From: Luteibacter jiangsuensis
GTDB taxonomy: Bacteria > Pseudomonadota > Gammaproteobacteria > Xanthomonadales > Rhodanobacteraceae
Assembly (NCBI RefSeq): GCF_030812295.1
Contig: NZ_JAUSSK010000003.1
Span: 744,001-808,000, forward strand
Reading direction: 5' to 3'
DNA: 64,000 nucleotides
The position numbers and the translations under genes were made by a program. Below the pieces are notes generated by a model. The model saw only the letters and a program-made list of their open reading frames with translations, made no database searches and was not told where the DNA came from. The stretch's first letter is position 1. The number at the start of each line of letters is the position of its first letter. Shown in pieces: positions 15,545-59,989 of this stretch.

Positions 15545-15550
15545 GGCATG

Positions 15551-15677: not shown

Positions 15678-15695
15678 CGCTCTCGGCCCTCACCC

Positions 15696-39589: not shown

Positions 39590-39590
39590 A
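39574..39590 (+). other. attL core (tRNA-Leu 3' end)
   Basis: CCCCCCTTGGGCACCAA, the last bases of tRNA-Leu plus one. The same sequence missing a single G recurs at the far end of the element. Confidence 0.75.
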
Positions 39591-39713: not shown

Positions 39714-39776
39714 TGTGAGTAACTTTGTGAGTAGAGTTGGCCCGTACTCACACAGATGACGCCCGGTTACTCACAT
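39714..39776. repeat. integrase arm-type repeat cluster, left end
   Basis: TGTGAGTAACTTTGTGAGTA at 39714-39733 holds two direct copies of TGTGAGTA. Inverted copies follow as TACTCACAC (39745-39753) and GTTACTCACAT (39766-39776), the last overlapping the integrase start codon. The same motif occurs inside the right end at 59905-59926. Layout suits integrase arm sites and possibly integrase autoregulation. Confidence 0.7.
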
Positions 39777-41091: not shown

Positions 41092-41304
41092 ATGGCTAAC
41101 AACATTGTAGCTGCACGCTTGTCCTCACCAGCGTCCCGTTTGGGGGCCCCTTCGGTCCCGCCCATCGTTTTCGCGGAAACGGCTCAGGAGCAGGAACTAC
41201 TGGACCTGTTCCGTCATCTGTCGCCCCGGAACAAGGTGGCAATTCTCGCAGCCGTGCGGACCCTCGCCGACATGTCCGCCCTCGCCACCAGTGCAAAGAA
41301 CTGA
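41092..41304 (+). CDS. hypothetical small element protein
   Basis: 70-residue protein starting MANNIVAARLSSPASRL, with an Ala/Leu-rich helical C-terminus (LLDLFRHLSPRNKVAILAAV). Start chosen for the TGGAG Shine-Dalgarno 9 bp upstream; the longer frame adds low-complexity Thr residues. The next gene begins 10 bp after its stop, so they form an operon. Function unknown; a small helical regulator is possible. Confidence 0.6.
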   Translation: MANNIVAARLSSPASRLGAPSVPPIVFAETAQEQELLDLFRHLSPRNKVAILAAVRTLADMSALATSAKN

Positions 41305-41314
41305 GGACACGGCC

Positions 41315-41674
41315 ATGGGTAACGAACTGCATGCTAGCCGCGCGTTCAATGGCAATCTCGCGGATTTTCTGGATAGCCAGCCCTCAATAAAGCGTCTTCG
41401 CGTTCTCGATGACGCCATGGTCGGTACCATCGCTGCTGGAGACATCATTACCGTCGATATGGGTAACCGCGAGGTCGATAGCGGTCATTGCTATCTCATC
41501 CTTTCGGAGGGAACCGTGCGGGTACGTCGCCTTGCAGTTAGCGACGGGGTGCTAAGCGTTAATGCCGATAGCACGGACAAGACTCTTTACCCTGACATGA
41601 CCATCGCGGGGGATTCCCCTGACTTCGCCGTACTGGGTCGAGTGACCGAGCGGCAGAGTGATAAAGGACTTTAA
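41315..41674 (+). CDS. S24/LexA-like domain protein lacking HTH and catalytic dyad
   Basis: 119 residues. The C-terminal 75 residues follow the S24 peptidase (CI/LexA C-domain) pattern: DDAMVGTIAAGDIITVDMG, then HCYLILSEGTVRVRRLAV and LGRV at the end. In active members the first box has Ser (GDSM) and the later box Lys (VKRL). Here these are Ala (DDAM) and Arg (VRRL), so autocleavage is not expected. No helix-turn-helix is present. It may dimerise with or antagonise a repressor. Start at 41315 has GAGGACACGG upstream. Confidence 0.62.
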   Translation: MGNELHASRAFNGNLADFLDSQPSIKRLRVLDDAMVGTIAAGDIITVDMGNREVDSGHCYLILSEGTVRVRRLAVSDGVLSVNADSTDKTLYPDMTIAGDSPDFAVLGRVTERQSDKGL

Positions 41675-41804: not shown

Positions 41805-43649
41805 ATGCCCCGCAAGAGCGCCCCTGGCAGGGCCAAAGCCACCGTTAGGGCGGCTGAATACGTGCGGATGTCTACGGACCAGCAACAGTATTCGACCCAG
41901 AACCAGTCTGCCGCTATTGCGGCCTATGCCGCTGCTCACGCTATGACTATCGTCAAGAGCTACCGTGACGAGGGTCGAAGCGGCGTGCGGATAAAGGGGC
42001 GACGCGCCCTTCAAGATCTACTCGCGGACATTCGCAGCGGCGAGAAGGACTACGACGTCGTTCTCGTGTACGACGTTAGCCGATGGGGCCGGTTTCAGAA
42101 TCCAGATGAGGCGGCGTACCACGAGTTCGTGTGCAACCTAGGCGGCGTAAGCGTCGTCTACGTGGCGGAGTCGTTCTCCAACGACGGAACGCCATTTTCA
42201 GCTGTACTGAAGGGCCTGAAACGGGTAATGGCTGGCGAATATAGCCGTGAGCTTTCGGCAAAAGTCTATGCTGGACAGTGCAGGCTTATCGGCATGGGAT
42301 ATCGGCAAGGCGGCTCAGCTGGTTATGGCTTAAGACGCATGCGACTGGATGCTTTAGGACGACCTCGGGGCATCTTGGAGCATGGACAGAGAAAGGCAGT
42401 AATCACCGACAGAGTGATCCTCGTGCCTGGTCCCATGGATGAGGTTCGGATAGTGCGCAGGATATTCCGGGAGTTCGCCGCTGGGATGGGCGCAGCTGCG
42501 ATCGCACGCGGACTAAATGCAGAAGCGATCAGTTTCCTTGACGGTAAAAGTTGGAATAACCATCGCATCCGGGCGCTACTGAAGAACGCGAAATATGTTG
42601 GAGACAATGTGTTTGGACGTACCCACGGGAGCTTTCAACTGCCTCGGGTTAATGTGCCCGAGGATGCTTGGGTTATGCGGAAGTCCTCCTTTAAACCCCT
42701 CGTGTCGCGTCAATTGTTCCTCAAGGCCAGAGAGCGCTTTGAGCAGATGGCTAAGAAGAGTGACGAAGACGTGTTGTCTCCCCTTAGAGAAATCCTTGCG
42801 AGGGAAGGGCAGATCAATAGCCGGCTGATCCGGGAAGACCGGCAGGCGGTGTCCGTGCCAACGCTCGTGCGCCGTTTCGGCGGTCTCAGGCACGTATATC
42901 GACTCATCGGGTTTACGCCCAAAAAGAATCTCGCCTATGCGGACGCCCGGGCCCATTTTCTTGGGGTGCGGGAGAGCACAATGGCCGACGTTAAGGCCAT
43001 GTTTGAGCAAGTGGGGTTGCCCGTGACTCGCCAGGGTTGGCGGCTTCAGATCGAGCACGCGTGGTCACTGTCCGTTGCGGTTGTAAGGACATCGCTTTAT
43101 CACGAGACCGAACGCTGGTACGTCAGACAGGTTCCCGACGATGCGGACATTGTGATATTTGTGCGCCTATCGGCCGACGGTTCCACCATCAGAGACTACG
43201 TATTTTGGCCCGCTGCGATCTACGGGTTCATCCCGGAGAATGTTTCTGGACGAACCTATCCGGCCGTAGCGGCATATACGTCGGGTTCGCTTCTCTCGCT
43301 AGCTCGCTGCCTGGGACGAGGGTCGGTCGACGCACCGCCTCTCGATCACGCAACCGATATTCATGGGCTGGCGCAGAGGTGCAGAAAGCGCGGCCAGTCG
43401 ATTTCAGAAGCACTGATCATCGTCGAAGGTTTTCTGGAACTCGCGAAAGAGGGGGCGAACTTCGGTGCGCTGGAGAATGCTCCGGAAGGCGACGGGGAAA
43501 CGATCCTTCGATACGTATTGCTATCCCGGCAAGGCAGCGTCCAACTAGAAAATGCCGCCCTGGTTTGTTGGCTGGCGAGGCATCACCAAGCGGCATTGAC
43601 CGTACTCCAATGGGCCTCGGATGACCTCCTGACGGGAATGGGGGGATGA
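41805..43649 (+). CDS. large serine recombinase with C-terminal accessory domain (copy 1)
   Basis: 614 residues. The N-terminal resolvase domain has the catalytic Ser (S23) in AEYVRMSTDQQQ, Arg in YRDEGRSGVRIKGR, and VVLVYDVSRWGRFQN. A recombinase domain follows (GSAGYGLRRMRLDALGR, NHRIRALLKNAKYVGDNVFG). A C-terminal extension of roughly 250 residues includes GETILRYVLLSR and ALVCWLARHHQAALTVLQ. The same tail exists as a separate reading frame behind the second recombinase (47364-47762), showing it is a module. It could promote rearrangement inside the element or of a separate target. Confidence 0.93.
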   Translation: MPRKSAPGRAKATVRAAEYVRMSTDQQQYSTQNQSAAIAAYAAAHAMTIVKSYRDEGRSGVRIKGRRALQDLLADIRSGEKDYDVVLVYDVSRWGRFQNPDEAAYHEFVCNLGGVSVVYVAESFSNDGTPFSAVLKGLKRVMAGEYSRELSAKVYAGQCRLIGMGYRQGGSAGYGLRRMRLDALGRPRGILEHGQRKAVITDRVILVPGPMDEVRIVRRIFREFAAGMGAAAIARGLNAEAISFLDGKSWNNHRIRALLKNAKYVGDNVFGRTHGSFQLPRVNVPEDAWVMRKSSFKPLVSRQLFLKARERFEQMAKKSDEDVLSPLREILAREGQINSRLIREDRQAVSVPTLVRRFGGLRHVYRLIGFTPKKNLAYADARAHFLGVRESTMADVKAMFEQVGLPVTRQGWRLQIEHAWSLSVAVVRTSLYHETERWYVRQVPDDADIVIFVRLSADGSTIRDYVFWPAAIYGFIPENVSGRTYPAVAAYTSGSLLSLARCLGRGSVDAPPLDHATDIHGLAQRCRKRGQSISEALIIVEGFLELAKEGANFGALENAPEGDGETILRYVLLSRQGSVQLENAALVCWLARHHQAALTVLQWASDDLLTGMGG

Positions 43650-43762
43650 CACGGCCCGTATGGTCTGTCCCGTTGCAATTCGCACAGCTTGGGCGCATAT
43701 TGTGTCCGTCGCCGCAAATTCGGTGACCGGGCGTAGGAACCCGTAAATTACGAGGCGCAACG

Positions 43763-43782
43763 GCGCCTATGGCGCTTTTTTT
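43763..43782 (+). terminator. Rho-independent terminator after recombinase copy 1
   Basis: GCGCC-TAT-GGCGC followed directly by seven T. An alternative overlapping stem AGGCGC-AACG-GCGCCT begins at 43753. Confidence 0.85.
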
Positions 43783-43812
43783 GTGTCTGTTGCGACACGC
43801 CTGCTTTCTGGT

Positions 43813-43880
43813 GGGCGTGCAGGGCAGCCTTCGGGCTGGTCGGTTACCTCGTATTCCGGCATTCCTACCCCTGCACGTCC
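43813..43880 (+). ncRNA. candidate structured RNA / leader
   Basis: An outer stem pairs GGGCGTGCAGGG (43813-43824) with CCCTGCACGTCC (43869-43880), with one G-U pair. Inside it a hairpin CAGCC-TTCG-GGCTG sits at 43825-43838. The structure lies between a terminator and the gene at 43926, in 276 bp otherwise without a gene. It could be a leader, a small RNA or a recombination site. No family recognised. Confidence 0.4.
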
Positions 43881-43925
43881 GCCACCTTACGTGTCGGTCA
43901 TTCCTCTTCAGCATCGAGGTGTGCC

Positions 43926-44577: not shown

Positions 44578-45168
44578 ATGGAACAGGAAAAGCACGACGA
44601 CATTAGTGCCACGTTGCAGCGAATGGCCGAAGAGTTTTCGGCCAAGGTCTCGCGATATTCGGAGGTGTCTGGGCTTTCGAACCTCCAGGCTCGGAAGGTT
44701 CTGCTTGCGATCAGTGGTTTGCGTTCGACTCGGGAAAAGATTCGGAACTTGCGAGGCAGGGCCGATCTTCCCGTCAGTTCAGACACCGAATCGCTGTTTG
44801 AGAGCCTATCTATCGGACAAGCATTCCTTGCTGGCGGTGAGCGGGAGGTAGACGTTGCCATTGAGCGAGCCGAGCAGGATGACTTCCTTGCCGCCTTCGT
44901 AGCTACCGTCCATGTGGTGAGCGACATCGCCATAGCTCTGGACTTCCTCGCGAGCGAGGAGCGGCAATCCAAAGCGTCGCGGGCTGCTGTTGCGCGGCAC
45001 CTCGTAGATAACAAGCGCAAGGAAGACGCCTTTGAGCTGTTCCTATCGCGAGAGTGGAAGTTCAAGGCCGATGCAGCCAGGGCCATCGAGCGGGTGTTCC
45101 ACGTCACGTACAAGACCGCTGAGCGCTGGATTAGCGAATGGACCCGTCCAATCCCCCCGTCTACGTAG
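44578..45168 (+). CDS. hypothetical helical protein (element)
   Basis: 196 residues, almost entirely alpha-helical by composition. The C-terminal region DAARAIERVFHVTYKTAERW looks like a helix-turn-helix, so DNA binding is possible. The N-terminus is charged (MEQEKHDDISATLQRMAEEF). GGCGGAG lies 5 bp upstream. It ends in a true TAG, followed by unrelated sequence, which matters if the element also uses TAG as a sense codon. Confidence 0.65.
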   Translation: MEQEKHDDISATLQRMAEEFSAKVSRYSEVSGLSNLQARKVLLAISGLRSTREKIRNLRGRADLPVSSDTESLFESLSIGQAFLAGGEREVDVAIERAEQDDFLAAFVATVHVVSDIAIALDFLASEERQSKASRAAVARHLVDNKRKEDAFELFLSREWKFKADAARAIERVFHVTYKTAERWISEWTRPIPPST

Positions 45169-45275: not shown

Positions 45276-45482
45276 ATGCAGTCCCCTGATGCAATCCGCT
45301 TCTCCCGACTCCCCGAGGTCTGCCATCAGACAGGGTTGAGTCGAACCCACATTTACCGCCTTGAGTCCAAGGGTCGGTTTCCCCGTCGAATCCGCTTAAC
45401 GGAAGCCACTACCGCCTGGGTCGAATCTGAGATCCAGCAGTGGTGTGCGGAGCGCATCGCCGCGTCACGAGGTGATGCATGA
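45276..45482 (+). CDS. AlpA-family HTH regulator/excisionase
   Basis: 68 residues with the AlpA-type winged helix: RLPEVCHQTGLSRTHIYRLE followed by GRFPRRIRLTEATTAWVESE. Such proteins act as excisionase-like regulators of integrase genes in P4-like satellites. Start immediately follows a perfect inverted repeat, suggesting self-control. Its stop overlaps the next start (ATGA). Confidence 0.88.
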   Translation: MQSPDAIRFSRLPEVCHQTGLSRTHIYRLESKGRFPRRIRLTEATTAWVESEIQQWCAERIAASRGDA

Positions 45483-45871
45483 ATGGGGCGGTACGTTGTC
45501 CCCGTTTCGACTCGTGCAGCGCTCCCATCTGCCCACTCGACCCAAAATGGCCCACCGCCCAGCACATCCAGGGCGAACGTGTCTGTGGGCTTCTGACCGA
45601 AGTGGTGAAGGTTGGCGGCCAGCAACGTGTGGGGAGCGTCCTGTTCGCCGATCAGTTCGCCACGCTCGTTCGCGAGTGGCCGAAGGTGGAGGCACGATGG
45701 GCAGACATCCGGGCTCGCCTCCGGGCATCGGCCAAGACGGGCTCACGTATTGACCGCGCAATAGCCAATTTCCGTACCCCATCATCGGGAACGCAGGCCA
45801 TACCCCTACCTACCCCCTTCGTCCCCCCTGAATCCTCGATGGTTGGGGCCTTTTCAGGGGGTGCCGAGTGA
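45479..45871 (+). CDS. hypothetical element protein
   Basis: 130 residues. The N-terminus has spaced cysteines (CPRFDSCSAPICPLD), a possible metal-binding knuckle, then a helical middle and a Pro-rich end. Coupled on both sides by overlapping start/stop (ATGA in, GTGA out), so it is translated with the AlpA-like and winged-helix genes. Function unknown. Confidence 0.68.
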   Translation: MNGAVRCPRFDSCSAPICPLDPKWPTAQHIQGERVCGLLTEVVKVGGQQRVGSVLFADQFATLVREWPKVEARWADIRARLRASAKTGSRIDRAIANFRTPSSGTQAIPLPTPFVPPESSMVGAFSGGAE

Positions 45872-46362
45872 CGACAAAAAAGCGTTGGAAAGAAAAGGGG
45901 CGCCGAGATTCCGGGCCTTTTGTCCGAATCCCTCATGAGCTTCAAGACTCTGAGAATTGGAAGGCTTGCGGCGGGTCCGCTCTTAAGCTGCTGTGTGCCC
46001 TGGCCCGTCAATACAACGGCAAGAACAACGGCGATCTGGGAGCGTCAATACGTGTACTAGGCCCCCGTGGCTGGCGCTCATCCGACACGCTGGATAGATC
46101 CCTAAAAGAATTGCTGCATTTTGGGTTCATCTCGCTGACGCGCCAAGGCGGTCGCAACTCGCCCAGCCTCTACGCAATCACATGGCGGCCCATCGACGAG
46201 TGTGGCGGGAAGCTTGATTGCCCAGCTACCAACATTGCGTCGAATGATTGGAAGGAGCCGCGAGGGCCGTTCAAGCGCCTTTCAAAAATCGCATCGTCAA
46301 GTTCGGAATCCGGAGCAACTAGATACGGAATCCGGAGCAGTGCTGTTTCTAGGGCTGCATGA
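45868..46362 (+). CDS. winged-helix protein, possible replication initiator
   Basis: 164 residues starting with GTG overlapping the previous stop (GTGA). GPFVRIPHELQDSENWKACG followed by ALKLLCALARQYNGKNNGDL resembles the winged-helix domain of replication or regulatory proteins in small elements. Two iteron-like repeats lie inside its 3' end and two just beyond. A role in replication is inferred from this arrangement only. Confidence 0.65.
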   Translation: MTTKKRWKEKGRRDSGPFVRIPHELQDSENWKACGGSALKLLCALARQYNGKNNGDLGASIRVLGPRGWRSSDTLDRSLKELLHFGFISLTRQGGRNSPSLYAITWRPIDECGGKLDCPATNIASNDWKEPRGPFKRLSKIASSSSESGATRYGIRSSAVSRAA

Positions 46363-46740: not shown

Positions 46741-47358
46741 ATGACTATCGGCAGGCGGGCCGATACGGACGAGGAAACAATCGAGCGAGCCGCGCGACTT
46801 CTCGCAGGGGCGCTTGGTTACGGGAGTCCGTGGTTTGCAACGACCATTGACTCCCCTTATGTGCCGGGGACTGACAATGATCCCAAGAACCATGCACTGA
46901 CGGTGTGCAGTCCCGGGCTGGTGACGGAGCAGGCTGCATGGAGCGTTGATGGCTCTCGGCACGTGAGGCGACAGCGGGCATGGCGTCAGTCGGCCTACCG
47001 AGTAGCCACACCGGTCTGTAAGCCAAGGCATAGCGTCCTTGCAGCGTTGTCTCTGGCAAAGCTGGACGGTCCCCTTGAATCAGTCCTTTTTCTCTACGTA
47101 ACCGGTGACGTTGGGCGGTTCTGGCCGGACGTGGAGCGGTTCGGGCTGGCATGCGTTAGTGGTGCGTTTGCGTCGGAAGCGCTTAACGACGCCATGGAAC
47201 GAATCATGTTCCGGAGAGCGTCCATTTCTCAGGATGCGAGGGCGAAGACGCTGGGAATTCGTGCGAGTGGCTATCGTGCTGCTACACGTGCCGCCGAGGT
47301 CCGTCTGCGCTCCTGGCTGCTCATGGCATCTAGACGCCTCTTGGTGGCCCTCGGCTAA
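46741..47358 (+). CDS. hypothetical element protein
   Basis: 205 residues, beginning immediately after the previous stop. The N-terminus is helical (TDEETIERAARLLAGALGYG); the C-terminus has a possible helix-turn-helix (ISQDARAKTLGIRASGYRAA) suited to DNA binding. Function unknown. It converges with the recombinase-associated gene at 47364, with only 5 bp between stops. Confidence 0.62.
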   Translation: MTIGRRADTDEETIERAARLLAGALGYGSPWFATTIDSPYVPGTDNDPKNHALTVCSPGLVTEQAAWSVDGSRHVRRQRAWRQSAYRVATPVCKPRHSVLAALSLAKLDGPLESVLFLYVTGDVGRFWPDVERFGLACVSGAFASEALNDAMERIMFRRASISQDARAKTLGIRASGYRAATRAAEVRLRSWLLMASRRLLVALG

Positions 47359-47363
47359 GGAGC

Positions 47364-47762
47364 CTAATCACGCTGTGGCCCGCTACGATCGTTAGCTAGA
47401 GGACGCAATTCGACCTCTAGCATTCCTTGTAGTGTCCTCAGGTGTCCTGGCTCGTGGCGTGCAAGCCAGTTCACAAGTTCTGCTTGTCTCAGCAGCCTAG
47501 CGATGCTTCCCCTAAGAATGACAAATTCCAGAATGTGAACCCCTTCGTCCGTCCCGCTGCGGGCTGCCCTAGCGGAATGAACGAGCGCATTCGCGGCCAG
47601 CCCGTGTCGCGCAAGCAAGGCCGCGAATGAAGTGTCGGTTTTGAGATATTCAAGGGCCGCCCCCGCACTGACGATGCAGGCCTCGCACATCGTGACAAAG
47701 TTCGAAAGAGCTATCTGCTCATTACGAAGCCGTGCCGCAGTAGCTAGCTCGGTCAACCACAC
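47364..47762 (-). CDS. split-off C-terminal domain of serine recombinase copy 2
   Basis: 132 residues starting at GTG and overlapping the end of the second recombinase by 10 bp in a different frame. VHILEFVILRGS and ELVNWLARHEPGHLRTLQ match the tail of recombinase copy 1 (ETILRYVLLSR, ALVCWLARHHQAALTVLQ) by eye. In copy 1 this module is fused. Here a frame difference separates it: either a frameshift in the element, a programmed shift or a natural two-gene arrangement. Confidence 0.7.
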   Translation of the reverse strand: MWLTELATAARLRNEQIALSNFVTMCEACIVSAGAALEYLKTDTSFAALLARHGLAANALVHSARAARSGTDEGVHILEFVILRGSIARLLRQAELVNWLARHEPGHLRTLQGMLEVELRPLANDRSGPQRD

Positions 47763-49297
47763 GCCACTGCACTCATGGCAGACACGATTGCGAGATCGCG
47801 GAGTACATGTAGGGACGTAAAGGTGTGCGCCTCAAGGAGAGGCCCGTTCTCGTTCCGGAGGCTTATCCGCCCAGGGCCGCACGCGATGCGAGGGAGTACC
47901 ACGTAATCAATGGGCACTGCGCCGTCCGGGGTCATCCTGGCGAAGACCACGATATCAGTGTTCATGGGCGTGCGGCGAGATACCCACCGGGGACGGCCTT
48001 TGTACTGAGATGCCTGAAGAATGACTGCGCTTATCGTCCATGCGTCATCAACATGTATTACCCAACCGTCTCTGCGGGTTCGTGAACCTGACTCATCGAT
48101 GATCTCAGTGATAAAAGTCGTCAGGCTTTCTCTCCACCCCTTAAGGCGCAGCCTAGGTACGACGAAATCCAGGTTTCTTTGGGCTTTGTAGCCCACTATC
48201 TCGTAAAGCTCTCGCATGCTCCCAAAGCGGTTCCTGTACTGCGAATACACCACGCCCGGTTCATCGCGAATTTGCTTGATGCTGAGAAAGCCATCCCTCG
48301 CCAAAATCCGCCGTGCGGTCTCCAGCATCTCGCTCGTAGTGGGTTCCTCCCGCTGGCGTGCTAGACGCTCTGCTGCTTTATAGAACAGGCCTGGGGGAAC
48401 GATTCCCTCAAAGGCTGAATCTTTTCGGGCCCATGCCGATGGAGGGTTGTAAACGGTTCGTTGCTTGAGCTTCTTGCTACAGCGGGAGAAAACGTTGTTG
48501 CCAATGTATTTTTCGTTTACGAGTATGCGCCTGATGGCACCATAGACCCAGCGACGACCGAGAAGATTAGGAATTTCATCGGCATTTAGCCGAATCGCTA
48601 TCTGACGTAGAGATCTTCCGCCGACGTACTCACGAAATATCCGCCTGACGACAGCCACTTCGTTTGCTGGGCCCGGTACGAGGATAATTCTATCGGTGTA
48701 GATGCTTTTCCGCTGACCGAACTGGAGTATGCCCTTTCGGGCTCCCTCCGCATCAATCAGCATCCGCCTCATTCCATAACCCGAGTAACCTCCTTGCCGG
48801 AACCCTAGGCATGTCCCCCTGTATTGTCCCGCATACACTTTTTCAGACAGTTCGCGACTGAATTCGGCGGCCATGGTGCGTTTCAGGCCCTTGAGGATCA
48901 TCGCCAGCGGCGAACCGTCATTGTCGAATAGCTCGGCGACGTAGCAGACCTTTATTCCAGCCTGCGTACACAGGAATTCGTAGTAGGCGGCTTCGTCCGA
49001 ATTCTGGAATCGGCCCCAGCTACTGACGTCGTACACAAGGACTACCTTGAACTCTGCATAGCCTGACTGCACGTCTGTAATTAGCCGTTGCAGGGCATCC
49101 CTCCCGCCAATATCCAGGCCGCTTCGTCCCTGATCGAAGTAGCTTCGGACGACACGCATGCCGTGTTCTTGCGCATAGGCTGCTATGGCGATGGATTGAT
49201 TGACCGGGGAGCATATCTGGAGATCCGTGGACATGCGGATATACTCCGCCGCTGGGACGGGCAATCGACCCCTGCCTGTAGGGTCCGGGGCGCTCAT
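47753..49297 (-). CDS. large serine recombinase (copy 2)
   Basis: 514 residues, paralogous to copy 1 and in opposite orientation. The catalytic Ser is again S23 (AEYIRMSTDLQ), with YFDQGRSGLDIGGRDAL and VVLVYDVSSWGRFQN. The recombinase domain has YSGYGMRRMLIDAEGA and AIRRILVNEKYIGNNVF. Copies 1 and 2 bracket about 4 kb of small element genes. The two diverge enough not to be a recent duplication. Confidence 0.92.
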   Translation of the reverse strand: MSAPDPTGRGRLPVPAAEYIRMSTDLQICSPVNQSIAIAAYAQEHGMRVVRSYFDQGRSGLDIGGRDALQRLITDVQSGYAEFKVVLVYDVSSWGRFQNSDEAAYYEFLCTQAGIKVCYVAELFDNDGSPLAMILKGLKRTMAAEFSRELSEKVYAGQYRGTCLGFRQGGYSGYGMRRMLIDAEGARKGILQFGQRKSIYTDRIILVPGPANEVAVVRRIFREYVGGRSLRQIAIRLNADEIPNLLGRRWVYGAIRRILVNEKYIGNNVFSRCSKKLKQRTVYNPPSAWARKDSAFEGIVPPGLFYKAAERLARQREEPTTSEMLETARRILARDGFLSIKQIRDEPGVVYSQYRNRFGSMRELYEIVGYKAQRNLDFVVPRLRLKGWRESLTTFITEIIDESGSRTRRDGWVIHVDDAWTISAVILQASQYKGRPRWVSRRTPMNTDIVVFARMTPDGAVPIDYVVLPRIACGPGRISLRNENGPLLEAHTFTSLHVLRDLAIVSAMSAVACG

Positions 49298-49398: not shown

Positions 49399-49950
49399 TT
49401 AGACCCCGATCATCTTCCAACGCGTGGACTGGTCATTCGTCGCCCCACATCCATTTGCTTCAAATGGGCGATAGAACGTCGCATCTGCCTTCAGGCACCA
49501 ATGGGTTGCCACGCTGACGATGTGGCGGGCAAGAAGGGGGATAGGGAACGTATTCGTCCCGACGGTGAGGCTTTGGGTGGGCGCCTCAATCGTAAATTGC
49601 TGAAGTGGGTCATTGACATTGCACACGTGCTGGCGAAGCCCGATGGCTCCTGTCGTCGGGTCTACGTTCTCTGCAGCAGCACACATCCCCGAGCCCACGT
49701 TAACGATCCTAGCCATGGAAGCACCCGAACTAAATGCGTACACCTGAAAGGCCCACGACTGATTGGACGTGCCCGTGCACGGATACAGCTGAATAATCGC
49801 TCCGTCGGCGGTAGAGAAGTCCACGACGTCCCAGCACTGGTTTGTGAGGTTCGACACGATTGCGGACGAAGGCGCTGCCTGGGCATTTGCGTGGGGCGTC
49901 ATCACTAGCCCGGCGAAAGCCAAGAAAAGGCCGAGGATACTGTTCTTCAT
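49399..49950 (-). CDS. secreted ricin-B-like lectin domain protein
   Basis: 183 residues. A signal peptide (MKNSILGLFLAFAGLVMTPH...NAQ) is followed by a single beta-trefoil-like domain: NQCWDVVDFSTADGAIIQLY and SNQSWAFQV show the Q-x-W pattern of ricin-type lectins. Several Cys may form disulfides. Probably binds carbohydrate outside the cell; a cargo gene unrelated to mobility. The upstream region carries TGTAGG-TTTCCG-CCTACA at about 50015. Confidence 0.75.
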   Translation of the reverse strand: MKNSILGLFLAFAGLVMTPHANAQAAPSSAIVSNLTNQCWDVVDFSTADGAIIQLYPCTGTSNQSWAFQVYAFSSGASMARIVNVGSGMCAAAENVDPTTGAIGLRQHVCNVNDPLQQFTIEAPTQSLTVGTNTFPIPLLARHIVSVATHWCLKADATFYRPFEANGCGATNDQSTRWKMIGV

Positions 49951-50638: not shown

Positions 50639-50718
50639 TTTCATGGGACGGAAATACATCCCGAGGACGACTATATACGCAGGGACCCTTGCCGCCTCAA
50701 GGCCCTACCTCGCCCGAC

Positions 50719-50749
50719 GCCGTGCCGGGTAATGCACGGCTCTTCTTTT
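50719..50749 (+). terminator. terminator-like hairpin ahead of the virion operon
   Basis: GCCGTGC-CGGGTAAT-GCACGGC followed by TCTTCTTTT. It lies between a TATATA box at 50672 and the first virion gene at 50792, so it would terminate transcripts entering the operon unless antiterminated. It could also mark the end of a deleted upstream gene. Confidence 0.7.
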
Positions 50750-50791: not shown

Positions 50792-51772
50792 ATGGGCGGC
50801 GGAAGCTCTCAACCAAAAAACACGACGACCACGACGAAGACCGAACTCCCGCCGTGGCTGGCGAATGCGTATCAGGGCTTCTTCAATTAGACGAATGCCG
50901 TCAATGACAAGCCCTACCAGTCCTATCAGGGCCCCCTGAACGCTAATCCGACCATCGATCAAACCTACGCGCTGGAATTGGCCCGTTCTGGTGCGCAAGG
51001 CAATCCATAGCAGACGGCCGCGCTCAATCAGCTTCTCGGCGGAAGCCAGAACGTGCAGGCGCAAGCCAGCCCCTATGCTGGTCCGAACCAGTATCTCGAT
51101 CAGGTTATCGGTAATTCCAACCGGGACATCACTGATGCCTATCAGCGAGGTGCTGGCGTTGGGTTACCCACGCAGTTCGCCTAGGGTGGAGCCTTTGGTG
51201 GCTCGGCGATGTAGCAGGCGCAGGACTCAAGCAAATACCAGCTTGCACAGACTCTCGCCGACAACACAAGCAGCCTTCGATATCAGGACTACAACGCCCA
51301 AGCTGATCGCTGGCAGCAGGGGTTCCAAAACCAGCTAGCCGCATCTCAGAACAACTCGCAGAACATCCTGGGCGCATCTTCGGGCCTTAATGGTGCGGGT
51401 GCGCTATAGGCGCAGTTCAACGGCCAATACGGCCAGCTTGCGCAGATCCAGCAGGACAAGGCTCAGGGCGACATCGACCAGGCTTACAACGACTGGTACC
51501 AGCAGAAGTTCGGCTACGACCAGCAGCGGCTTGCGAACTACGGCAACGCGCTCAACTCCGTTGCGGGCCAGTTCCAGGGATCGGCTACGTCCGGGCTTAA
51601 CCCGGCATATAAGCCTCGCACTGTCGGCGGTGCGGTTGCTGCCGGTGCGGGTGGTGCTGCGACTGGTGGAGCGATTGGTGCCGCCATTGCGGGTGGCTCG
51701 GCGGGTTCCGTCGCCCCAGGTTGGGGCACTGCCATCGGTGCCGCCGCTGGCCTCGCGTCCTACTACCTCTAA
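50792..51772 (+). CDS. phage virion/ejection-like protein with five in-frame TAG codons
   Basis: Open frame of 326 codons if TAG is read as sense, ending at TAA. TAGs lie at codons 33, 73, 131, 141 and 206 (50888, 51008, 51182, 51212, 51407). Glutamine fits each: the contexts NP-x-QTAAL, TQFA-x-GGAFGGSAM-x-QAQD and GAGAL-x-AQFNGQ lie in very Gln-rich sequence. The start has GAGG 9 bp upstream. The C-terminus is a Gly/Ala-rich membrane-like zipper common in DNA-ejection proteins of short-tailed phages. No frame change is needed. Amber recoding or nonsense decay are the two readings. Confidence 0.75.
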
Positions 51773-51781
51773 GGGGGCCAT

Positions 51782-52075
51782 ATGGAATACCTGATTGTGC
51801 TTACCCCCGAGAGCGTTGCCGCAAGGGCTCACGTGATGCCGGGCGGAATGCCGTACTGGCTTCCGAGTGACGACGCCGAGACCAGGATCATTTGCCCAAC
51901 CCTACGGTGCACGTGGATAGACGGCTCTCTTCCGAGCTTCCTGCGGGTCGAAATGCTTCCGGACCACAACGGCATCCGGAACATTGTGTGGTTGCCGACA
52001 AATGAGGTCGTCACCATCTTTGAGCCAAACCATAATCCAAGCGTGGCCGTTAACGCGCCCACACTCGTGCACTAA
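51782..52075 (+). CDS. hypothetical protein of the virion operon
   Basis: 97 residues, starting 9 bp after the previous stop with AAGGGGG as Shine-Dalgarno. MEYLIVLTPESVAARAHVMP is followed by a beta-rich middle and FEPNHNPSVAVN at the end. It ends in TAA and has no internal TAG. Position between the ejection-like genes suggests a small virion or assembly factor. Confidence 0.7.
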   Translation: MEYLIVLTPESVAARAHVMPGGMPYWLPSDDAETRIICPTLRCTWIDGSLPSFLRVEMLPDHNGIRNIVWLPTNEVVTIFEPNHNPSVAVNAPTLVH

Positions 52076-52087
52076 GGCGGACAACAC

Positions 52088-53506
52088 ATGGCAATTCTCG
52101 ATGGGCTTCTCGGGCCCACCCCAGGCATCACGGACGACGAACGTCGCTAGCTTGCTAATAGCGGACTGCTTAATGCTGGTCTGTCTATCCTGGCTGCTAA
52201 CAGTCAACCGGGCGTGACACCAATTTAGGCGATCTCCGGTGGTCTGCTGGGTGGCATCAACTCCGCTCAACAGGGAGCGCGGCAGCTTCAGGACGACAAG
52301 TCTCAACAGCAGCGGATGCAGTTTCAGCAAACGCAAATGGCAGATCAGCAGGAACAAATGCAGCGTCGTCGGGCAATTCAGGATTTGGCTCTGAAACACG
52401 TCACGCCGGGCCCTGACGGAAAGCCGGTTTTCGACCAGCAGGGATATGTTGCGGAACTGGCGAGCATGGACCCACAGGCCGCGATGGAATTGCACCAGAA
52501 CGAACTGCGCAACAAGCTAACGGAACTCCAGACCCAGAAAACGCAAGATGAATTGAACACGAGGGACATCACGCAGGGCTCCAACGTTCTCCATCAGACG
52601 CGGCCTAGTGCTGACGCACCGTGGGTGACTGAAAGCACGGCTCCGCGCTGGCAACGGCCGTCTGGCGGAGGTGGTGAGCAAACGGCCATTGAGCGGAATG
52701 CGGGCTTCCTGATGAAGCAGGGTTATTCCCGTGAGCAGGCGCTCCAAGCTCTCGGCCTGCCTCTCCCTGGAGGTACGACAGACGCACAGGGCTATGCTCC
52801 CGGCACTCCCAACGGCGAGGACTTCCTCAAGACGCTTCCGGCTGACCGTCAGGGCGTTGTCCGTGCAGTGGTGGAAGGCCGCTACCCCGTTCCCACGGGT
52901 AAAGCTGCGACCTCGCCGTGGTGGCAATCTGTCGTACAGGATGCGCAACAGGTCGACCCGACGTTTGAGGCGGGCAGTTATCAGGCACGCGCAGCGGCAC
53001 GTAAGGATTTCACGTCAGGGGCTACCGCGAAGAACATCACGGCACTCAACACGGTAGCCCACCATCTCGACCAACTGCTTGAGCAGGGAAAGCAACTCAA
53101 CAATGGTCGTTTCCCGCTCTGGAACAGCATTGCGAACTCGGCAGGCACGCATGTGGGCAAGGATGCAGTGAACAATTACAACCTCAATGCGGACGCTGTT
53201 GCCGACGAACTGGCGAAGGTCTTCGCGGGTAGTAGTGGGGCACTGGCCGACCGCGAACAGATCCGCTCCCGCCTCGATGCCAGCCTGTCACCGACACAGC
53301 AGGAGGGTTTTGGACGCACAGCGGCCAGCTTGATCGAGGGCCGCCTCGCGGGTCTTCAGGCACAGCTTGACCAGGGTTTGGGGTACGGGTCCAAGAACAT
53401 TCAACTCGTAAGCCCTGATGCCAACGCGTTGTTCACCAAGTTCAAGGGCGGAGAGAAACCCAAAGCTGCGGCGAACGGTGGCTGGTCTGCACGGAGGGTC
53501 GACTGA
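52088..53506 (+). CDS. phage DNA-ejection-like protein with two in-frame TAG codons
   Basis: 472 codons if TAG is sense, close to the size I recall for P22 gp20 (471). TAGs are at codons 21 (52148) and 47 (52226), in contexts DDERR-x-LANSGLLN and GVTPI-x-AISGGLLGG, where Gln fits. The true N-terminus (MAILDGLLGPTPGITDDERR) lies before the first TAG, with AAGGCGG 9 bp upstream. A Gln-rich coiled-coil follows (residues 60-100). The stop overlaps the next start as TGATG. A start after both TAGs would lose the conserved-looking N-terminus. Confidence 0.76.
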
Positions 53507-55737
53507 TGCCTGTTTTTCACGTTACCGGCCCGGACGGACACACGTACGAAATCAACGCCCCGGAAGGCGCTACCGAACAGGACGCTATCCAGTACGCCCA
53601 GGCGAACCTCGCTCAGCCAAGCGGGGGTGCTCCCGCGCCCACCCAACCGCAGCCTTCTGCCGCTCAGCCGGAACAATCCTTCATGGATAAGTTGGGCGAT
53701 CAGCTGACGTACCAGTACGACCAGTTGAACCAATTCGGTAACAACCTCGTTGATCCGATCGCACACCACTTCGCGAGTATCCCGGTTGGCCTCGCCCAGC
53801 TTGGCATGCATGGCGCAAAGGCCGTCGGTGACGTCATAGCCCCCGCAGACAACACGCTCTCCGGCCTGATTACCGGAAAGCAGGATGGGAACTGGATCGA
53901 CCGACAAACCGCCGCCTACGACAAGTGGGTGCAGGACCGCGAGAACGCCTACCAGTAGTCGGTGCCGGACAATTACGCGAGCTATGCGGGCGCCACGATT
54001 GGCGAAGTGCTCCCATGGGCAACCGGGCTCGGTGAGGCTAGGGCGCTTGGGCTACTCCCTACCGCCACCAAATTGGGCGGTAAGCTAGGCCTACTTGGTG
54101 CTGAAGGCGCCGTCATGGGCGCGACCCAGCCCGTTACGAACGGCGGGCAGAATTACGCCATTGATAAGGCGATTCAGGTAGGTGCGGGTGCAGCTACGGG
54201 GCCGGTACTTTATGGCCTTGGCGCGGCAAGCAAGGGTATAGGCAACGCTGCCCAACACATCACTAATCCGCAGGCCATCGCCGACGCGAACATTGCCCGC
54301 CTGTATGGGGCCGATGATGCGACGGTGCAGCGATTGGCTAATGCCCCGGCGTTCGTCCCCGGGGAGGTTCCTTCGGCTGCCCAGGTGTTGCAGACGCCAG
54401 AGGCGGTGCAGGCCGAACGGATGCTCCGGAATAACCCTGCATCGGCACCGGCTTTCGTCGCGCAGGACAATTCCAACAACGCAGCGCGCATGGGGCTGTT
54501 GCAGCAGATCGCGGGTACGGACGACGACCTGGCGGCAGCGGTGCAGGCACGCCGTGACGCCACGTCCCCACACTTCAAGGACTATCTGTCGCCCAGCAAC
54601 CCGCAGCAGCGTTACAAGACGGCAGTGGGGCTGTTGGGAGACGTGAAAGGGCAGGTATTCCGACCCGACTACGAGGCCCTTCAGCAAGCGAAGTCCATCG
54701 CCTCCAAGGTCGCTCGTGGGACGCTGGACGAGGGGCAGGGTGCCGACCTTCTGAACCAGATCACGGTGAAGACCAAGAAGGCGCAGAAGGTGCTCGACCA
54801 GGCCATCACCGCCATCAATCAGAATATGGTGGACCCCAGCCGGATCGCTAGCCAGCTTGCGGAGCTTACGAAGTCCGGCAATCCCACCGTGGCAGGGGCG
54901 GCCCGCCAGCACCTCGACCTGATCGCCCGAAACGCCGACGAAACCGGAATGGTCCCTGCTCGGGCCCTTGACGATATGCGGCAGAACATAGGGAATATGC
55001 TGTCCGCAAACGCCACTAACGGCGTTGTCGGCTCTCAAGAGGCTGCCCTGTATGGACCGGTCACCGCCAAAATTGTCTCTACTCTCGACCGAGCGATACC
55101 GGGCTATCGTAATAACCTGGCGACGTACGCCAAGCTTTCGCAGCCCATCAACGACATGCAGGCCATCCGAGGGCTACTTGACCCTAACGCTCCGGGTAGC
55201 CTTAACACTGCTGGCGATCCACAGCTTGCAGTCGCTCGTGTAAAGCAGGCCCTACGGTCGGACGACAAGGCCAACTACGGCCTGAGTGACCAGGCACGGG
55301 CTCAGTTGGAGAGCGTACGGGACAGCCTCCAGCGTCGCGGGATCTCCGATCAGAAGATCGCAGCGGCGGGTCCGGGGACGGCAGCTGACCTTCAAGCCCA
55401 AGGGCTGCTCTCAGGGGCCATTTTCGGCAAGAACCTGGGGAACCACGGCGGGTGGCTGGGCCGATCCATCGGTAGCGGCATTGGGGGCCTCCTGGGCTCC
55501 GGCCTGGGCGGCATCGAGGGTGGTCTCCTGGGCTCCAGTCTCGGCCTGGGCGTTAGCGACGCTATCGGAGCAGCCAATTCACGCGTAGCGGCTCGTACAG
55601 GGCAGACGGCGGCAGACGCGGGAGCTACGGCAGAGGCCATCAGGCGTTGGATTGGGAAGCAGCCCAAGGCCCAGCGGCAAGGACTGCTTGACCATTACCT
55701 TTACGGCCTTCCCGCAGCCACAGCCAACGAGCCCTGA
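53506..55737 (+). CDS. large phage DNA-ejection-like protein with one in-frame TAG codon
   Basis: 743 codons if TAG is sense. The single TAG is codon 151 (53956-53958) in ENAYQ-x-SVPDNYASY. The N-terminal 35 residues (VTGPDGHTYEINAPEGATEQ) form a short domain I have seen at the start of phage internal virion proteins. Residues 155-250 contain hydrophobic Gly/Ala helices, a long helical middle follows, and the C-terminus has a glycine-zipper stretch (IGGLLGSGLGGIEGG). Translation is coupled to the previous gene. Ends in TGA. Confidence 0.76.
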
Positions 55738-55787
55738 TCGGGTAAAGGGGTCTGGTACTATTTCACTGGGACGGGAGTTGGCTCTAA

Positions 55788-56984
55788 GTGGAACGTAACT
55801 CTATCAATCCGGCGGTACTTGTCTGGGCGCGGGAATCCGCAGGTCTGGACTTGGCTGAAGCTGCTCGAAAGATCGGGCTGTCCGCGAGCCGTAACCTAAG
55901 CCCTGCTGAGAAACTTGCTCAAATCGAGCAAGGTGCGCGAGCCGTCACCGCCTCGCTACTAGAATGCATGAGCAAGGCGTACCACCGCCCACTCATTGCA
56001 TTTTACGCGGCTACGCCGCCCCCAACAGGAGAGCGCGGGGCGGATTTTCGGACCCTGCCTCCTGACCGACGACGTGAAGATGCGCCAACAATTGACGCGC
56101 TCATCCGCGATATTAAGGCACGTCAAGCCCTTGTCCGAGAGTTAGTTGAAGACGATGAAGGGGTCGAGCCGATCCGCTTCGTCAATTCTCTAACAATGGA
56201 TACGCCCATCAACATAGCTGCGCAGGCCATAGCTGGAGCACTAGGGTTCACTAGCCGAGAGTTCAGGCGTGGACCGGTCGAGGCTGGGTTCGCGTACTTA
56301 AGGGAGTTGGTAGAGCGCACCGGCGTATTCGTGCTGCTAATGGGAAATTTAGGTTCCAGTCACACCAACATTAGCGCGGAGGTCTTCCGAGGCTTTGCTG
56401 TCGCAGATCGGTTTGCTCCGTTCGTGGTTATAAATGACCAAGATGCCAAGGTTTCTTGGTCATTTACGCTTCTGCATGAGTTGGTACATATATGGCTCGG
56501 CGAGTCAGGAATCAGCGGCGGTTCCGCGGACAGTCGAATTGAGCGGTACTGTAACGACGTAGCGAGTGCACTCCTCTTGGATCAGGCGGAGCTTGAGCGT
56601 TTTGTCTGGACTGGCGACGACCAAGCGCTAGAAGCCATAAATCAGATTGCGCACGAGGCAAGGGTCAGCCGAAGTCTTGTTGCCTACCGTCTGTTTCGCT
56701 CGCACGTTGTAACGGAGATAGTTTGGCGCACGCTCACTGACCGTTTTAGGCAGGAATGGCTGGCAGAGCGCGAGCGCCTGAAAGCGATTGAGAGATCAGC
56801 AAGAAAAGAAAAGCCTGGGGGCCCTAGTTATTACGTCGTGAAGCGCCACAAGCTAGGTGATGCGCTGGTCGACCTTGTTCGACGTTCCGTGACTGAAGGT
56901 AACCTGACACCTTCGAGGGCAGGACAAGTCTTGGGTGTTAGCGCAATGAATGTCCAGCCGCTTATCAGCGGCAAAGCGGCATAG
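55788..56984 (+). CDS. XRE-like HTH plus ImmA/IrrE metallopeptidase (antitoxin-like)
   Basis: 398 residues starting at GTG. The N-terminus is an XRE-like helix-turn-helix (VLWARESAGLDLAEAARKIG). The middle is a zinc peptidase of the ImmA/IrrE family with HExxH in TLLHELVHIWLG (about 230). The C-terminus has a second regulatory helix region. Stop is TAG; the DUF4411 gene begins 8 bp later. This pairing is a known toxin-antitoxin-like arrangement in mobile islands. Codon use is more AT-rich than the virion genes. Confidence 0.88.
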   Translation: MERNSINPAVLVWARESAGLDLAEAARKIGLSASRNLSPAEKLAQIEQGARAVTASLLECMSKAYHRPLIAFYAATPPPTGERGADFRTLPPDRRREDAPTIDALIRDIKARQALVRELVEDDEGVEPIRFVNSLTMDTPINIAAQAIAGALGFTSREFRRGPVEAGFAYLRELVERTGVFVLLMGNLGSSHTNISAEVFRGFAVADRFAPFVVINDQDAKVSWSFTLLHELVHIWLGESGISGGSADSRIERYCNDVASALLLDQAELERFVWTGDDQALEAINQIAHEARVSRSLVAYRLFRSHVVTEIVWRTLTDRFRQEWLAERERLKAIERSARKEKPGGPSYYVVKRHKLGDALVDLVRRSVTEGNLTPSRAGQVLGVSAMNVQPLISGKAA

Positions 56985-56992
56985 GGATTGTG

Positions 56993-57499
56993 ATGCTTTA
57001 TCTACTTGACGCGAATGTCCTCATAACGGCGAACAATCAGTACTACGCTCTCGATGCGGTCCCTGAGTTCTGGGACTGGATGCTCCATGTCGCGGGAGCG
57101 GGGCACGTGAAGATGCCTCGGGAGACGTTGGCAGAGTTGAAGGGAGGCAATGCCCAAAAGGATGCTCTCCACGCCTGGGCGGCTAGGCAAGACGTCAGGG
57201 ACGCTTTAGCCCTACGAGAGGACGTAGATGCTGATTTGGTGAGGAAGGTGATTGCTGAGGGATACGCCCCAGATCTACGCGATGACGAGTACGATCTTCT
57301 CGGGCAAGATCCCTTTCTGATCGCCCACGCACTTCGCGCTCCCCAGGACCGTGTCGTAGTCAGCATGGAGGTATCAAAGCCGTCACTCGCTCGGGCTAGG
57401 CGGAAGGTGCCCGATGTGTGTAAAACCTTGAACCTCAGGTGCCGTGACACTTTCCAGTTCCTTCGCGAGATGGGCTTTCGGACCAACTGGAAGACGTAG
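56993..57499 (+). CDS. DUF4411/PIN-like toxin
   Basis: 168 residues. The N-terminus MLYLLDANVLITANNQYY has the first acidic residue of the PIN fold; further acidic residues occur in RETLAELKGG and DDEYDLLGQDPFLIAHAL. DUF4411 proteins are PIN-like RNases found next to XRE-ImmA genes. ATG at 56993 is preferred over the overlapping GTG at 56990. It ends in a true TAG. Likely the toxin of the pair. Confidence 0.85.
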   Translation: MLYLLDANVLITANNQYYALDAVPEFWDWMLHVAGAGHVKMPRETLAELKGGNAQKDALHAWAARQDVRDALALREDVDADLVRKVIAEGYAPDLRDDEYDLLGQDPFLIAHALRAPQDRVVVSMEVSKPSLARARRKVPDVCKTLNLRCRDTFQFLREMGFRTNWKT

Positions 57500-57572
57500 T
57501 GCCGGTCGTTGTCGTGATTCGTTTTCCGACGCTATAAAAGAGACGGAAGGTGGGTTTTCTGACACGTAAAAG

Positions 57573-57875
57573 TCAGTCAGTCGATTTCTTCCGTGGTTTG
57601 TATGGTCGCAGCCGTGTCGGTGAAAGATTGCGATAGGGTGCCAGCGGGGAGGCGGCAGCAGCCAGAGGAATGGCCGGTTGGTCCCAGGGCAGCGACTTGG
57701 CGATGGCATCGTAAAGGGCTACCCGCTCGTACAACTTCTTCCCCATGAAGCGCCTGGCCGACAGGCCATAGTCGCTTTCCCTGGCTTTGAACTGGCTCAC
57801 CGATACCCCGCAGTAGTGCGCGGCCTCGTCGACGGTGAACCAGTCCTTGCCCGCGATGTTGAATTCGTTGGGCAT
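57573..57875 (-). CDS. HTH domain protein, excisionase-like
   Basis: 100 residues. DWFTVDEAAHYCGVSVSQFK is a MerR/excisionase-like winged helix; the C-terminus is basic (RLRPYKPRKKSTD). GGGAGG lies 5 bp upstream of the ATG. It may act with the integrase at the right end or regulate the neighbouring toxin pair. It converges with the DUF4411 gene. Confidence 0.75.
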   Translation of the reverse strand: MPNEFNIAGKDWFTVDEAAHYCGVSVSQFKARESDYGLSARRFMGKKLYERVALYDAIAKSLPWDQPAIPLAAAASPLAPYRNLSPTRLRPYKPRKKSTD

Positions 57876-59122: not shown

Positions 59123-59398
59123 TCACTTGATACGTGTTGCCTCAACGGTCTCGTTGTCATCCGTGTTGATTAGCTTGTCATCACACACCACGATTTCTGT
59201 CATTGGCAGCCAAAGCGAGCTGTCGATGCGGTCGAGCGACGACACTTCCCATATTGTTCCGTCGTTGAGGACGATGATTCCTCCATCGTCGGTCACAGAC
59301 CGAACCCAGTAGCCACTTTCGCACGCGAGAGCTTCAACTGACGTTGCGCCAAGGGTGATGATGACGATTATTCGCCAGTACTTATCGAGTGACAGCAT
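59123..59398 (-). CDS. small membrane-anchored or exported hypothetical protein
   Basis: 91 residues with a hydrophobic N-terminal segment (YWRIIVIITLGATSVEALA) acting as signal or anchor. The mature part has two Cys and a beta pattern (GGIIVLNDGTIWEVSSLDRI). Its start overlaps the lipoprotein stop by 17 bp, so the two are co-translated. Confidence 0.6.
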   Translation of the reverse strand: MLSLDKYWRIIVIITLGATSVEALACESGYWVRSVTDDGGIIVLNDGTIWEVSSLDRIDSSLWLPMTEIVVCDDKLINTDDNETVEATRIK

Positions 59399-59843
59399 AT
59401 GCCTTCATCCGGTACTTGTTGCGGATGCTCGACTGGATAAAGGCCACGTCGAACGCCTGGACGCCCTCTGGCTGGCCCTTGAAGCAGCGGACCATGAGCT
59501 TGCTGTTGGGCTTTACCATCGGGAACACGCCGCCCGTAGAGACAGCCGTGTTATCCCCGTAGGCGGCCGTGTTGACCGTGACCGCCCCCGTGGTCGAGGA
59601 CTCCGCCCCATTGAGGATGGCGAAGTGGTCGCAGCCCAGGGCCTCCGACTTGTCTGCCGCCCGTAGAATTGCGAAGTCCGAAGCCTGCTCGGGCGTCGTG
59701 TAGGCATTGGCCGCGAAGTTGACCATGAACGTGTCTGGCGACAGTTGGGTCTCGCTGAACCCCCCGGACCAGCCCTTGGTTTGGTATCCCGTTGCACAGC
59801 CTGCCAGGCCCACGGCCAGCACGGCGAGAATTGCCTTCCTCAT
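59382..59843 (-). CDS. lipoprotein of the CC0125/CC1285-like type
   Basis: 153 residues from the ATG at 59843, chosen because GAGGGGG precedes it by 6 bp. The lipobox LAGC is at residue 16. The mature part GYQTKGWSGGFSETQLSPDT and FAILRAADKSEALGCDHFAI is the pattern of a widespread small proteobacterial lipoprotein family of unknown role. Cargo near the right end of the element. Confidence 0.78.
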   Translation of the reverse strand: MRKAILAVLAVGLAGCATGYQTKGWSGGFSETQLSPDTFMVNFAANAYTTPEQASDFAILRAADKSEALGCDHFAILNGAESSTTGAVTVNTAAYGDNTAVSTGGVFPMVKPNSKLMVRCFKGQPEGVQAFDVAFIQSSIRNKYRMKAYAVTR

Positions 59844-59904
59844 GCCCATCCCCCTCAGTGGCTCACCCCGGGGCATATTTTAGGCTCATTTAGGCTAATC
59901 AGTT

Positions 59905-59973: not shown

Positions 59974-59989
59974 CCCCCCTTGGCACCAA
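59974..59989 (+). other. attR core, imperfect copy of tRNA-Leu 3' end
   Basis: CCCCCCTTGGCACCAA matches the tRNA-Leu end except for one missing G. It sits at the change from element to chromosome, next to arm-type repeats and a terminator like the one behind the tRNA. Confidence 0.72.

Follow-up and report, generated by a model that had tools for sequence, protein, structure and literature searches.

The use of a stop codon as a sense codon is known from phages with genetic code 15, crAss-like phages among them, in which TAG encodes glutamine (Gln) and is used late in infection (PMC9523058; PMC11210395). A suppressor tRNA with a CUA anticodon is encoded by 375 of 715 predicted code-15 phages (PMC11210395). 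What purpose stop-codon reassignment serves is a question that recoded phages raise, and a satellite borrowing the code without the tRNA would be a clean test, as one helper tRNA gene should activate a whole late operon independently of transcription. Here we describe a candidate for such a satellite, a 20.4-kb element at a tRNA-Leu gene of Luteibacter jiangsuensis. The window, the whole stretch of DNA analysed, is 64,000 nucleotides (nt) long (C3:744001-808000 of host genome G000, 4.32 Mb in seven contigs), and the element spans window positions 39574-59989. It carries an operon of four genes (g1 to g4) of putative DNA-ejection type, three of them with in-frame TAG codons. We consider it likely that this amber operon serves a phage satellite as its late module and could be translated only with the tRNA of a helper phage, a dependence that we infer from the genes.

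Gram-negative phage-inducible chromosomal islands (PICIs) are characterised, in the account drawn on here, by a conserved order of integrase, regulator and replication genes, no structural or lytic genes, a size of typically 12-15 kb, attachment (att) sites never occupied by prophages, and induction and packaging by a helper (PMC6092414). In the element an integrase, AlpA and a DnaD-like protein follow in an order that is kept in its relatives; the match to a replication gene is weak, and the element yielded no primase. It departs from these islands in having an ejection operon and in its size, which is 20.0 kb and 18.0 kb in the related genomes G122 and G105. A precedent is EcCIMP1, a PICI of Escherichia coli MP1; its helper Kapi1 is a relative of P22, and it has DNA-transfer-like genes as well as two that are AlpA-like (PMC11773190). 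The two elements have in common an integrase with AlpA nearby, a second AlpA-like or excisionase gene at the far end on the opposite strand, and a helper-like prophage that is missing from most carriers (2/21 have one for EcCIMP1). They differ in host, in that recoding goes unmentioned in the portion of the EcCIMP1 report used here, and in that helper mobilisation, which has been demonstrated there, is a prediction here (PMC11773190). P4-like satellites also combine integrase and AlpA with a core that has little phage homology, and a C4 RNA is present in our element; no Pfam families for psu, delta, sid, epsilon or alpha, the components listed for P4-like satellites, occurred among the element proteins scanned (PMC8628076). 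Code-15 phages likewise have TAG at Gln columns, but they are whole phages, whereas in the element neither a complete set of virion and packaging genes nor a CUA tRNA of its own was found, and its relatives that do encode one are temperate podoviruses. Searches of open-access literature gave, among the titles and abstracts listed, no description of a satellite with recoded genes, a scope that takes in neither subscription papers nor most preprints.

The original prediction, made from the DNA alone, described four tightly packed genes with eight in-frame TAG codons in three of them and no in-frame TAA or TGA, and this was confirmed when the coordinates were re-derived (Table 1). The genes are separated by 9 bp, 12 bp and then a TGATG overlap, and end in TAA, TAA, TGA and TGA. 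TAG makes up 8 of 155 Gln-type codons (CAA, CAG, TAG) in the operon versus 0 of 129 in 18 other element genes (Fisher p 0.009; the count omits AlpA and two small frames), and internal TAG is absent also from AlpA and other non-operon genes (integrase, S24, cargo). The host treats TAG as a normal stop, which in window 1-39400 terminates 5 of the 21 long frames that do not overlap, and four genes of the element itself terminate with TAG. TAG is expected to make up 64-68% of one-step new stops in g1, g3 and g4, so that eight out of eight has by itself a p of only about 0.03-0.045; it is the homologues that make the case decisive.

These were sought in 233 genomes of the family, in the viral contigs of IMG/VR and, for the integrase, in a genus set of 23 genomes. 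The g1 gene is present in ten of the family genomes, each time with internal TAG and never with internal TAA or TGA, and eight of these copies, which lie in satellites, hold 39 TAG codons (5, 3, 9, 4, 4, 6, 4, 4). With g1, g3 and g4 aligned and TAG masked, the share of Gln was taken from the other alignment rows, after removal of sites at which the number of aligned sense residues was below three (e.g. 1 of 11 satellite g3 sites). At satellite TAG sites (n=62) the mean Gln share was 0.481, at CAA/CAG sites (n=711) 0.590 and at the remaining sites (n=6468) 0.049. The corresponding values for copies outside satellites, namely phages and a broken second copy in the host genome (G000b), were 0.558 (n=73), 0.614 and 0.044, the phage class for g4 including G000b and genome G158. 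The alignment that had been proposed as a check thus favours Gln. At the five g1 TAG sites of the window the nearest copy, in G107, has E, Q, Q, Q and Q, and at the three TAG sites of G107 the window has A, N and Q; the two genes have no TAG site in common.

Relaxed selection, named beforehand as a possible refutation (a ratio of nonsynonymous to synonymous substitution rates, dN/dS, near 1), was not found; instead purifying selection is strong. Between the window and G107, g1 has 90.8% identical residues, with dN 0.055, dS 1.02 and dN/dS 0.054, and the ratio is 0.13-0.24 in nine other g1 pairs (five copies), 0.12 in one g3 pair and 0.13-0.17 in three g4 pairs; TAG codons are skipped, and the ratios are rough as dS near or above 1 is close to saturation. 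A dN/dS of 0.054 without shared TAG sites means that TAGs were gained and lost while the protein stayed nearly constant, which excludes plain decay. Column identity and selection, together with the suppressor tRNAs of phage relatives, support the predicted reading of TAG as Gln in the ejection operon.

The gene content of these relatives shows that the homologous TAG-rich operon belongs to predicted temperate podoviruses (V-type phages hereafter), mostly encoding a CUA tRNA with Gln-type acceptor ends. A scan of IMG/VR with g1 gave ten loci, nine of which have 2-4 TAG within the stretch of g1 that aligns and is otherwise open, and one (L075 = V240) none; the contigs reach about 40 kb, and two of the related phages are prophages, in Luteibacter and a Dyella-type genus. 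V239 (40.0 kb) encodes a large terminase subunit, portal, scaffold, major head protein, further structural proteins and a tail fibre, as well as DnaB helicase, a DnaD-like loader and an integrase, with g1-g3-g4 flanked by the head genes on one side and the tail fibre gene on the other, and V237 encodes a CI-type repressor. The two remaining family genomes with g1, G118 and G086, hold V-type prophages with a suppressor tRNA. Among GenBank phages (INPHARED) tblastn found no match to g1 or g4. Pooled over ten phage and prophage contigs, TAG accounts for 238 of 3102 Gln-type codons in late versus 27 of 583 in early conserved genes (p 0.0085), a comparison that is indicative only as some early frames were taken from the wrong strand. 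In V240 all 279 Gln-type codons in late genes are CAA or CAG, and the search for a suppressor tRNA gave none. With a g4 76% identical to that of the window, this phage represents a natural standard-code sister (L112, L113). A possible unrecoded cousin element with g3 and g4 relatives lies near a tRNA-Leu(caa) gene in G158 (G158:C25:47786-49600; L049, L130).

Suppressor tRNAs were sought with ARAGORN, with Rfam and with a sequence pattern for Gln-type ends. Eight of the ten IMG/VR records with g1 encode a CUA tRNA, seven according to ARAGORN and V237 according to the pattern, its tRNA having been overlooked by both ARAGORN and Rfam; across the 23,794 bases compared, V237 and the prophage in G118 (Luteibacter sp. 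Sphag1AF) are identical. The two others are V240 and a 9.3-kb fragment, in which TAG is present. Six of the seven ARAGORN tRNAs have U1, G2-C71, G3-C70, G73 and a U-C mismatch at 1-72, and acceptor ends of this kind serve as determinants for glutaminyl-tRNA synthetase. All six are recovered by the pattern, which is limited to Gln-type ends and can only establish that no Gln-type suppressor is seen. It matches six of the family genomes: G118, G086 and G049, where the match sits among V-type phage genes, and G103, G111 and G163, where the matched sequence is not predicted to fold as a cloverleaf. Minimum-free-energy folding gives a cloverleaf for the tRNAs of G118 and G049 but not for that of G086, despite its similarity in sequence to the G049 tRNA.

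None of the eight carrier genomes is matched by the pattern. A search of the whole host genome for a CUA tRNA, which the prediction had called for, was negative: Rfam finds 46 tRNAs, none with a CUA anticodon when all were read by ARAGORN, the pattern has no match, and the element likewise yielded none. With a suppressor found in neither element nor host, the code would need to be provided in trans. CAG in relatives combined with a suppressor in none of them had been named as evidence against recoding, and here the outcome is divided: relatives often have CAG at these sites, and in satellite hosts no Gln-type suppressor is seen, yet one is encoded by the homologous phages.

The CUA tRNA of V238 (L090 1498-1591) is of the Ser/Leu type, 94 nt in length with a long variable arm, and the TAG columns of this phage still favour Gln (36%). 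Either another amino acid has come into recent use in V238, or charging is unusual. The tRNAs at G118:C2:239816-239886, G086:C5:412270-412340 and G049:C1:1065400-1065470 have a CUA anticodon and a very short D arm and are not reported by ARAGORN; suppressor-tRNA counts in recoded phages may consequently be too low.

The anatomy of the carrier looks like that of a satellite. The original prediction spoke of a phage, and while the operon is of putative virion (DNA-ejection) type, the element around it does not resemble a phage or prophage. Neither database scans of its proteins nor comparison with the phage contigs found capsid, portal or terminase genes in it, and the host genome yielded no capsid gene of V type. 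Nine phage contigs have no match at 1e-5 to the element integrase or to the genes at 44.5-47.3 kb, and the element is therefore no mere deletion derivative of these phages. Shared with them, on the other hand, are the S24 part, the HTH gene at 57573 and, in V238, the gene at 59382. Integrase, AlpA and the genes at 45.4-47.3 kb are collinear in G107, G108, G105 and G122 and partly so in G087, G088 and G050. The shared core (integrase, AlpA and its neighbours, leader, g1) spans genomes of three genera, and a tRNA-Leu gene adjoins seven of the eight copies, none having been found in the G107 stretch.

What is constant across the copies is g1 and a leader upstream of it. In all eight the leader starts in GGGACNGAAA-type sequence and continues with a TATA-like stretch, then a hairpin of variable sequence and a 27-nt core, CCCGNCGCCGTGCCGGGNNANGCACGG, which lies at 50713-50739 in the window and holds two overlapping possible stems. 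With up to two mismatches permitted, the core occurs in exactly 8 of the 233 genomes, each time without mismatch and 33-57 bp upstream of g1; a reversed control pattern occurs in one. As an exact pattern it is absent from IMG/VR, and it was found neither in the phage contigs nor in the prophages of G118 and G086. Leader and suppressor pattern are mutually exclusive in the contigs examined. Structured RNAs, the theta ribozymes near phage suppressor tRNAs, have been proposed to act in the code switch of recoded phages (PMC10879173); the leader differs in matching no Rfam family, and a twister- or HDV-like fold suspected by eye had no Rfam match up to E 5. Eight suppressor-tRNA neighbourhoods scanned with Rfam contained only tRNAs at gathering score. 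The core stem pairs are invariant in the eight sequences and fit an RNA structure and a DNA-binding dyad equally. The leader is the mark of a putative independently regulated unit, the satellite operon, something for which a passive remnant would have no need.

In the host alone, the non-operon genes of the element could be expressed at any time, and translation of the ejection operon should halt at g1 codon 33. Infection by a V-type phage would bring the suppressor tRNA, UAG would be read as Gln, and the ejection proteins of the satellite would be made late and only in helper-infected cells, where they might enter satellite-carrying virions or substitute for the helper's own. The ejection genes are thus probably silent until a related phage arrives, and the code of the helper would be a lock on the late genes of the satellite. 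Helper use, timing and particle content are what we infer here from the observed code, selection, anatomy and tRNA distribution. We lean slightly towards the wider proposal that a satellite family in Luteibacter and Dyella-type bacteria keeps its virion genes in the code of its helper and takes the suppressor tRNA as the induction signal, with a leader so far confined to satellites. If true, this would be a post-transcriptional route by which a satellite senses its helper, and a genetic-code lock between parasite and host virus. Standard-code gene callers break such genes, so similar elements would look like remnants; the leader core marks such an element in the eight family genomes.

Several observations weigh against a helper-dependent satellite. 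Satellite and helper were never found together, as the V-type capsid gene occurs in 2 of the 233 genomes (G118, G086) and in none of the eight carriers. The negative result for the suppressor is incomplete, since Rfam and ARAGORN overlooked the tRNA of G118, the pattern overlooks that of V238, and the tRNA table used reaches down to 64.6 bits. Satellite TAG sites match Gln slightly less well than CAA/CAG sites do (p 0.023). Half of the copies (G107, G108, G088, G050) are without g3 and most or all of g4, G107 and G108 retaining g1 and only the end of g4, and G088 and G050 having g1 with neither; with the split g3 of G105, this indicates that some copies are decaying. The g3 and g4 relatives in G158, 38-46% identical, have no TAG, leader or g1, and as V240 is also TAG-free, recoding does not extend to every member of the wider group. 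Finally, the putative role of g1 derives from one PHROG label, and g3 and g4 have no confident family.

Of the alternatives, the one that survives best is a version of the satellite reading itself and does not exclude it: the helper tRNA would be needed, but the TAG codons would be neutral drift inherited with genes from recoded phages, and the lock would not be selected. We give this a chance a little short of even. Genes do appear to move between the two kinds of element, as satellites occupy three places among the phage g1 sequences (window and G107 beside V237; G122, G105 and G108 together; G087 beside the prophage of G086) in a tree that excludes G088 and G050, a pattern most simply read as gene exchange with recoded phages. 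Turnover of TAG sites is also fast, and in G122 the g4 gene is free of TAG. What speaks for selection is that at least three TAG codons are kept in each of the eight satellite g1 copies, with none inside the 18 other window-element genes counted. A g4 tree was not used on account of long branches and weak support.

That the element is instead the decaying remnant of a recoded prophage, in which TAG once encoded Gln and the operon is no longer expressed, we regard as unlikely. The failure to find a suppressor tRNA or a V-type capsid gene in the host would fit a remnant, as would the loss of g3 and most of g4 in four of eight copies, the split g3, and the second, clearly broken copy at G000:C3:616007. 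A remnant would not, however, be expected to show a dN/dS of 0.054 without a TAG site common to the window and G107, a core including leader and g1 that is shared by three genera beside tRNA-Leu in seven of eight copies, or an integrase and 44.5-47.3 kb genes unmatched in the nine phage contigs. Random nonsense decay without recoding, the counter-reading offered with the prediction, is very improbable: CAG is the main Gln codon and one C-to-T step turns it into TAG, which would dominate one-step stops anyway, but TAG is the only internal stop in 10 of 10 genomes with g1, with 39 in the satellite copies, the phages have suppressor tRNAs, and selection is purifying.

Table 1. Features of the element and the amber operon (positions in the window)
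Feature	Position	Strand	Basis or remark
tRNA-Leu(gag), integration target	39505-39589	+	ARAGORN
attL core	39574-39590		att comparison
Tyrosine integrase (Arm-DNA-bind_3, Phage_integrase)	39775-41001	+	Pfam
S24 (CI-like C-terminal) protein	41291-41674	+	37-45% identical to repressor ends of four phage contigs
Large serine recombinase	41805-43649	+	Pfam
isrK	43708-43782	+	Rfam gathering
C4 antisense RNA	43804-43889	+	Rfam gathering
AlpA regulator	45276-45479	+	Pfam Phage_AlpA E 1.6e-18
DnaD-like helicase loader (weak)	45868-46362	+	PHROG 186 E 2e-4
Conserved element protein	46741-47358	+	no relative found in IMG/VR
Large serine recombinase	47753-49297	-	Pfam
Ricin-B-lectin-like protein, cargo	49399-49950		Pfam
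Conserved leader	50645-50741	+	GGGACGGAAA block, TATA-like stretch, variable hairpin, core CCCGNCGCCGTGCCGGGNNANGCACGG
g1, putative DNA-ejection protein	50792-51772	+	PHROG 4287 E 7.5e-12
TAG codons 33, 73, 131, 141, 206 of g1	50888, 51008, 51182, 51212, 51407		
g2, small protein	51782-52075	+	zero TAG; the only relatives seen are those of G105 and G122
g3, ejection-operon protein without family	52088-53506	+	TAG codons 21, 47 (52148, 52226)
g4, ejection-operon protein without family	53506-55737	+	TAG codon 151 (53956)
Cargo pair, helix-turn-helix (HTH)-M78 (ImmA/IrrE-like) and DUF4411	55788-57499	+	PADLOC RmrA E 1.3e-12 (HTH-M78); both terminate in TAG
Second small HTH/excisionase-like protein	57573-57875	-	PHROG 66 E 0.005; 44-46% identical to V233, V239
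Two conserved genes, lipoprotein-like by eye	59123-59876	-	longer one 83% identical to V238 gene
attR, tRNA 3' end with one G missing	59974-59989	+	att comparison

A Pfam scan of g1-g4 gave no family above cut-off. The AlphaFold model of g1 is poor, with a predicted local distance difference test score (pLDDT) of 35.6; that of g4 reaches 60.8. In Foldseek the g4 model had nothing at E <= 0.001 in the PDB and 15 matches at that threshold in BFVD, mainly phage proteins that are uncharacterised, with a lytic-transglycosylase-type domain in one match, as well as an 'Injection protein' at E 0.011. As the template modelling scores (TM-scores) of these matches are low, we do not claim a function for g4 from its modelled fold.

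At the ends of the element, the same one-base difference between att sites is seen in G122 and G105. The integrase is 82-84% identical in four other genomes of the genus set, with the next best at 64%. C4 RNA is linked to P4 immunity; it occurs also in G087 and G088 and was not found in the scanned stretches of G122, G105, G107, G108 and G050, a second G122 piece lying outside the scan. The cargo pair of the window compares with G107 (55416-57520) at 96% in protein and 92% in DNA, and other shared DNA at about 70-80%, an excess which suggests that the cargo was recently exchanged. The four element genes that end in TAG (44578-45168, 47364-47762, 55788-56984, 56990-57499) would undergo readthrough during helper infection. 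The genes at 59123-59876 are conserved in G107 and G108 and are possible superinfection-exclusion genes. The broken copy G000b (G000:C3:615844-616827; L066, L067, L095) lies beside tRNA-Leu(taa) and consists of a 26-residue fragment of the integrase start, the C-terminal 28 residues of g3 (96% identity) and the N-terminal part of g4 with three TAG. In G108, a small frame with one TAG (L128:11557-11817) is 58% identical to V233 15524-15835, which lies shortly before the terminase gene.

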